In this document: positions 20,326-22,545 of the stretch, piece by piece
Numbering within the stretch: the first letter of the stretch is position 1
How the letters are laid out: each line of letters starts with the position of its first letter
Source of the DNA: Pseudomonadota bacterium
Lineage (GTDB): Bacteria; Pseudomonadota; Alphaproteobacteria; GCA-2731375
Reading direction: 5' to 3'
DNA length: 61,191 nucleotides
NCBI GenBank assembly: GCA_027623205.1
Contig: JAQBYC010000008.1
Location: 1-61,191 of the forward strand
Made by a program: the position numbers and the translations under genes
The notes under the pieces: model-generated
Told to the model about the DNA's origin: nothing
Databases searched by the model: none
The model's input: the letters and a program-made list of their open reading frames with translations, nothing else

Positions 20326-20345
20326 GTATCGAGGACCATTGGTAT
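20326..20345. repeat. 20-bp dispersed element, copy 2
   Basis: Reads GTATCGAGGACCATTGGTAT, 18 of 20 matches to the consensus ATATCAAGGRCCATTGGTAT. It ends exactly on the first base of the stop codon of the next leftward gene. Confidence 0.55.
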
Positions 20346-20965
20346 TACGTGCCATAGTGCGCGGCAAGGGTGAAGCAGGATTGCACCAGAATACCGGTGG
20401 CGGTCATGGGGTTGAGAGAGCGGCCGCCACCAAACTGGCAGCGTTCGGCATGGGCCTTGATGGTCATGCCCAGGCCCAGGACATCCCAGACGATATTGGC
20501 GCCGGGTGTGCCAATACCGCCCAGGGCGCGCATGGCCCGCCAGACGTCCTCGCGGGCGGACAGAATGCGGTGTGGCGCGGCGTTGCCGGGGTCGAAGCCG
20601 CCCGGCAGCACGCGGACGTCCCGGTTCGCCAAGCCGTGTAGGCTGGCGCCCTGGAAGATGCCCTCGAATTTTCGGGCGGCGGCCTCCGCCCTGTGGTCGA
20701 TGCGGCCCTTGTTCACCAGCGCATCAATCGTGTCCGGCGCGCGCATGGCATAGATGCGGGGCCCCCGGCCGTCCTGGCCGGTGACTTCGGTGCGGACCAG
20801 GGCGGGATGGTTTTCGCCCAACGGATGATGCTGCATGCGCCAGTTCGTCGGCCCGGCATCACTGCCCAGTTGCAGGCGATCCAGTTGCGCCCGCCTGCGG
20901 GACGTGCGGCGGCGCTTTGGTGCGCCACGGCCCGGTAAATCCGATGCTTGGCCATCGTTGTCCAT
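20345..20965 (-). CDS. DUF6456-like protein (tentative)
   Basis: A 206-residue protein with a basic N-terminus (KRRRTSRRRAQLDRLQLG). The C-terminal half, with SAREDVWRAMRALGGIGTPG and ANIVWDVLGLGMTIKAHAE and the ending LAAHYGT, resembles the alphaproteobacterial DUF6456 domain found in small DNA-binding-type proteins and prophages. Function is unknown. Its ATG directly abuts the stop codon of the GcrA-like gene, with no spacing, so both are on one transcript fired from the shared operator region near 21300. Confidence 0.5.
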   Translation of the reverse strand: MDNDGQASDLPGRGAPKRRRTSRRRAQLDRLQLGSDAGPTNWRMQHHPLGENHPALVRTEVTGQDGRGPRIYAMRAPDTIDALVNKGRIDHRAEAAARKFEGIFQGASLHGLANRDVRVLPGGFDPGNAAPHRILSAREDVWRAMRALGGIGTPGANIVWDVLGLGMTIKAHAERCQFGGGRSLNPMTATGILVQSCFTLAAHYGT

Positions 20966-21286
20966 TTATTCACCGTCTATTTCGTCATCAAATTCGCCAT
21001 AAGCGGGCAGCAGATCCCGCATGTAATGGTCGCATTCAGCCTGCTCCGCCATGAATTGTGGGTCGCCATCGGGATTGATGCTGCGCGCATGGTGTGTGCC
21101 GCAATAGGACCGGCCCCGCAATCGCGGCAGCTGGCAATAGCGCCAGTCCGGGGTTTGCACATCCCCGTCGATCCAACGGCAGCCGGTGATCAGTTGCGCC
21201 GCCGTGCGCCCCGCCCCGCCTCTGCCGGGGGGATCTTCTGATGGCGCGACGGGGAAGGTTGGCGGGGAATTGAGAGGCTGCGTCAT
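20966..21286 (-). CDS. small GcrA-type zinc-motif protein
   Basis: A 106-residue protein. The middle (residues 36-66) has Cys-Arg-Trp, GD, DWRYC, PRLRGRSYC and THHA, the same spacing of three cysteines and a histidine seen at the C-terminus of the cell-cycle regulator GcrA. The N-terminal DNA-binding part of GcrA is missing: the first 35 residues are proline/glycine rich. The C-terminus is acidic. It may bind metal and contact sigma-70 RNA polymerase like GcrA, but this is inferred from one short motif. The start lies 11 nt from a palindromic operator, and the gene is divergent from the repressor. Confidence 0.6.
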   Translation of the reverse strand: MTQPLNSPPTFPVAPSEDPPGRGGAGRTAAQLITGCRWIDGDVQTPDWRYCQLPRLRGRSYCGTHHARSINPDGDPQFMAEQAECDHYMRDLLPAYGEFDDEIDGE

Positions 21287-21296
21287 GGCGGCAATA

Positions 21297-21315
21297 GTAT
21301 ACGATTTCGTATAAT
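21297..21315. promoter_or_regulatory. type A operator, left copy
   Basis: GTATACGATTTCGTATAAT contains a perfect inverted repeat TATACG-ATTT-CGTATA. It matches 16 of 19 bases with the site at 22103-22121. It lies between the GcrA-like gene and the repressor and overlaps a TATAAT on the + strand. Confidence 0.7.
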
Positions 21316-21348
21316 ATTCAAGAAAAATATTCTAGTTCGTATTTGCAT

Positions 21349-21363
21349 CCGTATAAAATACGG
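21349..21363. promoter_or_regulatory. type B operator, left copy
   Basis: CCGTATAAAATACGG is a perfect palindrome with 6-bp arms and 13 of 15 bases shared with 22063-22077. It ends 3 nt before the repressor ATG at 21367 and contains a TATAAA that could be the -10 box, so bound protein would block the repressor's own promoter. Confidence 0.7.
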
Positions 21364-21366
21364 TCT

Positions 21367-22032
21367 ATGTTGTGTGCCATGGTTGATTGGGCAGATACCG
21401 TGCGGCGTCTGCGTCTGGCGCGGCGGCAGACACAGGCGCAGTTCGCGACGTCCCTGGGGACGACACAGGCGACCGTCTCCCGTTGGGAAGCGGGCAAGCA
21501 GGGGCCGGACCGGGAACAGTCCCTTGCCATCACCGCCCTGGACCAACAGCCGGGTAGCGCCGCGCCGCCGGCGGCGGCGCCCCGGCGGGTATCGGGACAA
21601 TCCGACCATCTGATCGCAACGGAAATTCCGGGGCCGCTCGGGCGGATCCAGGATTTGCCGATCCTGGGTCATGCCGAGGCCGGTGAAGACGGCACTTTTC
21701 TGGATAATGGTGCAATTACGGGCTATGCCGGCCGGCCGGCGAATTTGGTGGGTGTAACCAACGCCTATGCCCTGATCGTGCACAATTCGTCCATGCGGCC
21801 GCGCTACGAACCGCGCGAAATAATCGAGGTGGACCCGAACATTCCCGTACGACCGAACGACTACGTTGTCGTACAGACCACGGATGACCGGGCCTTTATA
21901 AAACTGCTGCGGCGGCGCACCGAGCGCGCCATCATTCTGGAACAGTACAATCCCCCGAAGGAAATCAGGTTGGCCCCCGAAGAGGTTGCCGCCATGCATC
22001 TGATCGTCGGGGCGCACCGGGTCTACCGCTAG
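21367..22032 (+). CDS. LexA/CI-type repressor (XRE HTH plus S24 peptidase domain)
   Basis: A 221-residue protein. Residues 11-45 form an XRE helix-turn-helix (RRQTQAQFATSLGTTQATVS). Residues 98-221 form an S24/LexA-like domain: Ser142 in HNSSMRPRYEP and Lys179 in AFIKLLRR are 37 residues apart, the spacing of the LexA catalytic dyad. An Ala105-Gly106 pair is a candidate self-cleavage site. It therefore looks like a repressor that could be inactivated by RecA-stimulated cleavage. Paired palindromes lie on both sides of the gene. No ribosome site precedes the ATG at 21367 and a TATAAA sits about 10 nt before it, so the mRNA may be leaderless; an ATG at 21379 is the alternative start. Confidence 0.85.
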   Translation: MLCAMVDWADTVRRLRLARRQTQAQFATSLGTTQATVSRWEAGKQGPDREQSLAITALDQQPGSAAPPAAAPRRVSGQSDHLIATEIPGPLGRIQDLPILGHAEAGEDGTFLDNGAITGYAGRPANLVGVTNAYALIVHNSSMRPRYEPREIIEVDPNIPVRPNDYVVVQTTDDRAFIKLLRRRTERAIILEQYNPPKEIRLAPEEVAAMHLIVGAHRVYR

Positions 22033-22062
22033 CTGCGACGGGGTGTATCGGGCCGTCGCCGG

Positions 22063-22077
22063 CCGTAAAATATACGG
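22063..22077. promoter_or_regulatory. type B operator, right copy
   Basis: CCGTAAAATATACGG, with arms extending to GCCGTA-AAATA-TACGGC (22062-22078). It matches the site directly before the repressor in 13 of 15 bases. Confidence 0.65.
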
Positions 22078-22092
22078 CAATCGCATCATTTG

Positions 22093-22121
22093 TTGCATAA
22101 ATGTATACGATACAGTATAAT
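22093..22121 (+). promoter_or_regulatory. sigma-70-type promoter
   Basis: TTGCAT at 22093-22098 and a consensus TATAAT at 22116-22121 are 17 nt apart. A start site near 22128 would give a 25-nt leader with AAGGA at 22141-22145 ahead of the TTG start at 22153. The type A palindrome covers the -10 box, so the promoter should be repressible. Confidence 0.6.
22103..22121. promoter_or_regulatory. type A operator, right copy
   Basis: GTATACGATACAGTATAAT has inverted arms TATAC/GTATA and shares 16 of 19 bases with 21297-21315. It covers the spacer and -10 box of the promoter for the next gene. Confidence 0.65.
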
Positions 22122-22152
22122 TCCGGGCTGCGATCGGCGAAAGGATCCGAGC

Positions 22153-22545
22153 TTGCCCTATGATGCCTCCAACCTGATTTGCGTGGCCGGTAACAGCCGC
22201 GCCTCGCACTGGGCCTACAACACCACGGACCGTACGGCCGAGGTTTTGGCGCCTGGTTATTTCCCCGACGACCGCCAGCGGAATTTCATGCATCCGGGCG
22301 AAATTCTGACCCTGACCTGCCTGGCCGTGGCAACGACGCCGCGGCAAAGGCGCAACCCTGTCGCCGTCTTGCAGGCGGTAACGGCCAGAACCCGCGACGG
22401 CATCTGGCTGGTCCTGCCCCTGACCCCTATTGCCCGGCCCGGCGAGGTTGCCGCCCGGCCGGTTACCGATCTCCCGGGTTGGTATAAGGCCTCGAGATCT
22501 GTCGTCCGCCGCACCTGGCGTCCGCGGCGCCCGCGCTCAGCGTGA
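22153..22545 (+). CDS. small phage-like protein of unknown function
   Basis: A 130-residue protein from a TTG start with AAGGA seven bases upstream. Its first half (YDASNLICVAGNS, HWAYNTTD, AEVLAPGYFPDD, MHPGEIL) resembles short beta-rich proteins often met in prophage structural or tail regions of alphaproteobacteria. The second half ends in a strongly basic tail (RRTWRPRRPRSA). The gene is under an operator-covered promoter and therefore probably controlled by the adjacent repressor. Its last 9 bases overlap the end of the convergent PRPP synthase gene. I cannot assign a function. Confidence 0.6.
   Translation: MPYDASNLICVAGNSRASHWAYNTTDRTAEVLAPGYFPDDRQRNFMHPGEILTLTCLAVATTPRQRRNPVAVLQAVTARTRDGIWLVLPLTPIARPGEVAARPVTDLPGWYKASRSVVRRTWRPRRPRSA

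Follow-up and report, generated by a model that had tools for sequence, protein, structure and literature searches.

The 61,191-nucleotide stretch analysed here (the window) derives from the 5.0 Mb genome of a marine bacterium and contains a small region that, judged from its sequence, is probably an immunity switch of the phage type that persists in the chromosome as an orphan module. By analogy it is best read as an orphan switch wired like that of Caulobacter, where RogA, a LexA-like S24 repressor, controls the two-gene activator GafYZ (PMC9632790). The conserved element of the region is a single predicted operator palindrome, A (ATACG-N4-CGTAT), present in three copies upstream of the repressor gene and in one copy downstream, the latter with a degenerate partner.

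A conserved four-gene cassette

The following genes make up the cassette:

20345–20965, minus strand: DUF6456-like protein, 206 aa (PF20057 in 2 of 10 orthologs; dN/dS 0.24–0.30)
20966–21286, minus strand: GcrA-like protein, 106 aa (C-terminal part of the PF07750 profile)
21379–22032, plus strand: repressor with XRE helix-turn-helix and Peptidase_S24 domains, 217 aa (Pfam; alignments to LexA, lambda cI, 16-3 C and the orthologs; dN/dS 0.12–0.19)
22153–22545, plus strand: small gene with TTG start, 130 aa (orthologs in 10 of 10 carriers; dN/dS 0.16–0.35)

Among 15 genomes of the family, 11 (the window's own counted) gave repressor matches with E no higher than 1e-10, of which ten were strong, and the comparison set consists of 10 loci (window counted) on contigs of the same lineages. 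In all ten the gene order is the same, with the DUF6456-like and GcrA-like genes running leftward and the repressor and small genes rightward, and dN/dS values of 0.12–0.44 indicate purifying selection on each of the four genes. Neighbouring genes encode an M48 protease, ManC, PRPP synthetase and thymidine phosphorylase; the left flank with the M48 protease is constant across genomes and the right flank is variable from window position 22537 on. In genome G009 the M48 gene is kept beside different neighbours and the cassette is absent, which points to a rearrangement boundary, and the repressor search of the 15 family genomes did not recover the cassette in two members of the genus. An antisense frame of 354 codons crosses the repressor gene (21283–22347, minus strand); since the DNA is GC-rich, it is probably no gene. 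Rfam yielded no credible RNA element, the single sub-threshold match being to nadA (E 0.91).

In the alignment of the ten repressor orthologs, Ser138, Lys175 and Ala101-Gly102 are invariant and align with the catalytic and cleavage residues of LexA and lambda cI; by these residues the repressor would be a self-cleaving-type member of the S24/LexA family. Its best phage matches include the repressor C of Rhizobium phage 16-3 and those of its kin. Nothing was found in the PDB by sequence, and pattern scans of IMG/VR revealed no close phage source. Genome G012 additionally carries a paralog (L021:4773-5420, the same locus as L012) with an S24 half that is 78% identical and a different helix-turn-helix. 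Upstream of this paralog the conserved offsets are not occupied by A-type sites, and behind it lies another S24-like fragment, suggestive of domain shuffling.

The similarity of the two leftward genes to GcrA and DUF6456, proposed in an earlier note on this DNA, is borne out by profile searches: PF07750 is matched in 9 of 9 members, in its C-terminal part only (best E 2.2e-6), and PF20057 in 2 of 10 members (best E 7.6e-5), the homolog from a sister genus (locus L075) exceeding the Pfam cut-off. The GcrA-like match covers profile positions 110–144, which represent the sigma-interacting domain with its CCCH motif. GcrA, a cell-cycle regulator of 173 aa, combines an N-terminal DNA-binding with a C-terminal sigma-interacting domain (PMC7403470), whereas the 106-aa GcrA-like protein weakly shares the latter and gave no profile match to the former, so that the full two-domain architecture was not found. 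Weak PDB matches of the GcrA-like protein to iron-sulphur proteins were attributed to chance. Structure models were poor for the DUF6456-like protein (mean pLDDT 44) and beta-rich but of low confidence for the small protein (mean pLDDT 55), and a fold search with such models returned nothing under E 0.1.

The small gene matches phrog_18004 (E 9e-5), a phrog without assigned function, and had no match in the phage search. No relatives outside the genus were found among 385 genomes of the class; a sister-genus locus, L010, carries one, however. In one relative, G008 (L017:2005-2241), a deletion together with a frameshift seems to have truncated the gene.

Gene transfer agents and prophages

One could imagine that the cassette is the regulatory arm of a RogA-GafYZ-type gene transfer agent (GTA), with the structural cluster located elsewhere in the genome. 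Both systems, RogA being compared by its description, would share the logic of an S24-type repressor over a two-gene activator, and GafA homologs carry the DUF6456 annotation (PMC9638019, PMC9765227). Caulobacter was the sole positive among the 14 controls of our DUF6456 search. The DUF6456 match is weak in the orthologs and stronger in the sister genus, and repressor control of the pair is suggested by operator position. What argues against a GTA is that, with positive controls, Phage_portal (PF04860) and Phage_capsid (PF05065) had no match and GTA_TIM (PF13547) no over-threshold match in the 15 family genomes, one sub-threshold GTA_TIM fragment being seen in G008. These searches gave no RcGTA-like cluster, and since particle genes of the three kinds were not detected in the family genomes, they are not the target of the switch there. 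In addition, the window repressor keeps the catalytic Ser/Lys residues that RogA reportedly lacks, and its predicted operators are of the CGTAT-based form ATACG-N4-CGTAT and not of the GGAA-N4-TTCC form bound by RogA. The reported ChIP targets of RogA are gafYZ and CCNA_02002, and Caulobacter possesses GTA genes. From our point of view, the GTA reading is thus rather unlikely, if still worth consideration.

Related gene arrangements occur in distant Alphaproteobacteria, where gene names were assigned by reading translations and not by profile search. DUF6456-like homologs are divergent from S24 repressors in L077–L080, and in the prophages L076 and L081 a DUF6456-like gene lies between replication or early genes and terminase. 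At L077:5715-7084 and in L082, terminase and duplicated portal-like genes come after a divergently oriented pair of S24 repressor and DUF6456-like genes, which looks like a prophage that has been rearranged. In L079 and L080, which belong to a different family, an S24-type repressor is likewise divergent from a DUF6456-like gene and adjoining prophage genes were not recognised. By gene position only, these loci support a late-regulator origin.

Such relatives also lend some weight to the view that the cassette is what remains of a prophage in decay and no longer has a function, given that the repressor and the pair both have phage-like relatives, that DUF6456-like genes reside in prophages of other Alphaproteobacteria, and that the cassette was not recovered from the two genus members and is missing beside the M48 gene of G009. 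Decay is, however, difficult to reconcile with the low dN/dS of all four genes, with operators and promoters conserved in 10 genomes and with synteny that is stable on one side, and besides the cassette itself no phage genes were recognised among the neighbours examined. As such, we regard a remnant as improbable.

Predicted operators and promoters

The earlier note had described two different palindromes framing the repressor gene in mirror order, A-B-gene-B-A. The four repeats exist (A, 21297–21315; B, 21349–21363; B', 22063–22077; A', 22103–22121), and their copies share the bases that had been counted, namely 16/19 (84%) for A and A' and 13/15 (87%) for B and B'. Of the expected conservation in relatives, only one half holds: A matches the consensus at 9–10 and A' at 8–10 of 10 positions in 10 of 10 genomes, but B and B' are mostly not intact and do not form a conserved second class. 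The mirror order is an artefact, as only four of about five operators had been listed and two extra A-type sites, O2 and O3, were missing. Sites were scored by their matches out of 10 to ATACG-N4-CGTAT, and p-values were obtained by dinucleotide shuffling of the intergenic stretches in which they lie. The predicted elements are:

21296–21301, minus strand: -10 of the divergent promoter, TATACT; start codon 9 nt downstream; region conserved
21299–21312: operator O1, core of palindrome A, ATACGATTTCGTAT; 9–10/10 in all 10 genomes; overlaps the divergent -10
21319–21324, minus strand: candidate -35 of the divergent promoter, TTCTTG; 17 bp spacer; assignment uncertain
21329–21342: operator O2, A-type, 8/10 in the window; 7–9/10 in 9 of 10 genomes, offset unchanged
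21341–21354: operator O3, A-type, ATTTGCATCCGTAT, 8/10; 8/10 in 9 of 10 genomes
21343–21371, plus strand: repressor promoter, TTGCAT (21343–21348), 17 bp, TATGTT (21366–21371); similar elements in orthologs
21349–21363: palindrome B, CCGTATAAAATACGG; lies in the spacer of the repressor promoter, without general conservation of its right arm
22063–22077: palindrome B'; its ATACG (22072–22076) probably belongs, as one half-site, to O4, a degenerate operator of the A type
22093–22121, plus strand: downstream promoter, TTGCAT (22093–22098), 17 bp, TATAAT (22116–22121); similar pair in 9 of 10 genomes
22105–22118: operator O5, core of A', ATACGATACAGTAT, 9/10; 8–10/10 in all 10 genomes

Upstream of the repressor, A scores 10/10 (p 0.0004), and the 92 bp gap holds three A-type sites of at least 8/10 where about 0.1–0.15 would be expected from shuffles. 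Relative to the start codon, O1 lies at -79/-80, and O2 and O3 lie at -49/-50 and -37/-38 in 9 of 10 genomes. From the centre of O2 it is 30 bp to that of O1 and 43.5 bp to the start codon of the repressor. O3, centred 31.5 bp before the ATG as is O3 of L075, spans the repressor promoter's -35 together with some of the adjoining spacer, and the right half of O3 doubles as the left arm of B. Since O2 and O3 overlap by 2 bp, and both are imperfect in the window, they may not both be filled at once.

Downstream, A' scores 9/10 (p 0.02), and O5 overlaps the spacer and -10 of the predicted promoter; in some single genomes its score is only modestly above chance (p up to 0.12), and the case for it is recurrence among related genomes. 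More generally, the carrier genomes are related and sites may be common by descent, hence they do not count as independent observations. B' scores 9/10 (p 0.023) and reaches at least 9/10 in the window alone among the 10 genomes. It most likely represents the degenerate operator O4, since its ATACG half lies 33 bp before O5 and relatives have a 9/10 A-type site at a matching distance (34 bp in L016 and L019, 32 bp in L010); O4 is weak in the window and in several relatives.

The repressor ATG follows the -10 by 7 nt (6–7 nt in orthologs), so that its mRNA is probably leaderless. In 9 of 10 genomes a comparable downstream promoter-like pair, spaced by 16–17 bp, is found some 30 nt ahead of the start codon. 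None of the three predicted promoters was listed by a generic promoter scan. A-type half-sites overlap each of them and are conserved in 10 genomes, which agrees with the earlier suggestion that one repressor could switch the GcrA-like/DUF6456-like pair, itself and the small gene; a single repressor thus probably controls all three transcripts. A wider regulon of A sites was considered and rejected: exact sites recur between genomes at the cassette locus only, those elsewhere in the 15 genomes are not common to any two and their totals are near those of a control pattern, and scans allowing one mismatch gave 59 matches compared to 81 for the control.

In genome G011, which belongs to another genus, the locus L075:115-2450 has a DUF6456-like and a GcrA-like gene divergent from an S24 repressor that is not orthologous to that of the window (34% identity over 70 residues only, E 1e-7). 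This locus has its own operator sequence, GCATANNTATGC, in five copies, three before the repressor gene (1636, 1666, 1682) and two after it (2390, 2423), with 0.02–0.03 expected by chance per side, and A-type sites are essentially absent from it. The step from O1 to O2 is 30 bp as in the window, that from O2 to O3 is 16 bp (12 bp in the window), and the two downstream operators, at the place equivalent to O4 and O5, are perfect and 33 bp apart. It would appear that, in this one genome, a natural specificity swap has taken place in which the layout was kept and the recognition exchanged. The L075 pattern further indicates that the third upstream operator is O3 and not B. By eye, two-sided operator arrays were not evident at the S24/DUF6456 pairs of the distant genomes L077–L080.

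The earlier note had also raised the possibility of two regulators that bind A and B separately. B is perfect in 4 of 10 genomes (L001, L013, L018 and L020), i.e. the window and three relatives, at p about 0.001 or less each (10/10, p 0.0006 in the window), which speaks for this possibility. Its imperfect state in the other six, the restriction of intact B' to 1 of 10 genomes, and the composition of both from the CGTAT half-site of A (B is CGTAT-N3-ATACG, i.e. the A half-sites in opposite orientation) nevertheless argue against B as an independent class, as do the five L075 sites that follow one consensus, and we consider a second regulator very improbable. The right arm of B is conserved in two lineages, an observation the operator model leaves without explanation. 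It is hardly credible that the inverted repeats are just common AT-rich promoter DNA whose symmetry arose by chance, in view of the fixed offsets, the 9–10/10 matches across genomes, the three upstream sites and the L075 swap, even though the sites lie in promoter spacers rich in AT and the downstream p-values of some individual genomes are weak.

Relation to known switches and proposed function

The layout, for which the earlier note knew of no described system, does have precedents, since the immunity regions of phage lambda and Rhizobium phage 16-3 are built alike. In 16-3 the order is OR2-PR-OR1-Pc-c-OL1-PL-OL2; the repressor, whose S24 half is homologous to that of the window (38% identity, E 9e-20), sits between two groups of repeated operators, with a divergent promoter on one side and an outward promoter on the other, and c starts 7 nt after its -10. 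The 16-3 region differs in being phage-borne, in its own operator sequence (annotated as 14 bp on the right and 12 bp on the left) and in having no GcrA-like/DUF6456-like pair annotated beside c. Lambda carries OR3-OR2-OR1 and OL1-3 on either side of cI, and thus shares three operators between the repressor and the divergent promoter, more on the far side, and a cleavable repressor. OR2 lies about 42 bp before the cI start compared to about 43 bp for O2, and the lambda repressor mRNA is leaderless. Lambda is, however, not closely homologous; its rex genes precede OL, its operators measure 17 bp and its divergent gene is cro. In the cassette, a helix-turn-helix plus S24 gene is flanked by predicted operator groups (O1–O3 upstream, O5 and O4 downstream) that overlap predicted divergent, repressor and outward promoters; portal and capsid searches of the 15 family genomes and the neighbouring genes gave no sign of a phage or prophage around it. 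We conclude that the cassette would work like an immunity region but, as far as tested, outside a recognisable phage.

In the proposed mechanism, repressor dimers on O1, at the divergent -10, and on O5, at the downstream -10, would shut both promoters. With its centre some 43 bp ahead of the leaderless start, O2 could stimulate the promoter of the repressor gene as OR2 does in lambda, and O3 could limit it as does OR3. DNA damage, through RecA-stimulated cleavage, or dilution would then release the small gene and the GcrA-like/DUF6456-like pair from repression. Like GafYZ/GafA, the pair would probably work jointly through RNA polymerase and switch on genes elsewhere. We tentatively propose, as a possibility that deserves attention more than confidence, a domesticated stand-alone cellular switch: a cleavable repressor with a lambda-like array over a split GafA-like activator (a GcrA-type sigma-interacting domain plus a DUF6456-like protein), free of phage or GTA structural genes, triggered by damage and serving a non-phage programme, the repressor/operator specificity of which may have been exchanged as a unit between genera.

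Switches of the lambda style are textbook phage devices, and here the layout is conserved across a bacterial genus, seemingly without phage particles, and kept even across genera with the recognition code swapped. If true, this would give a well-defined example of a decision circuit that has been domesticated. The DUF6456 family would further gain a regulatory context and a link to gene transfer agents and their control by RogA-GafYZ/GafA, with a predicted operator code that is directly testable.
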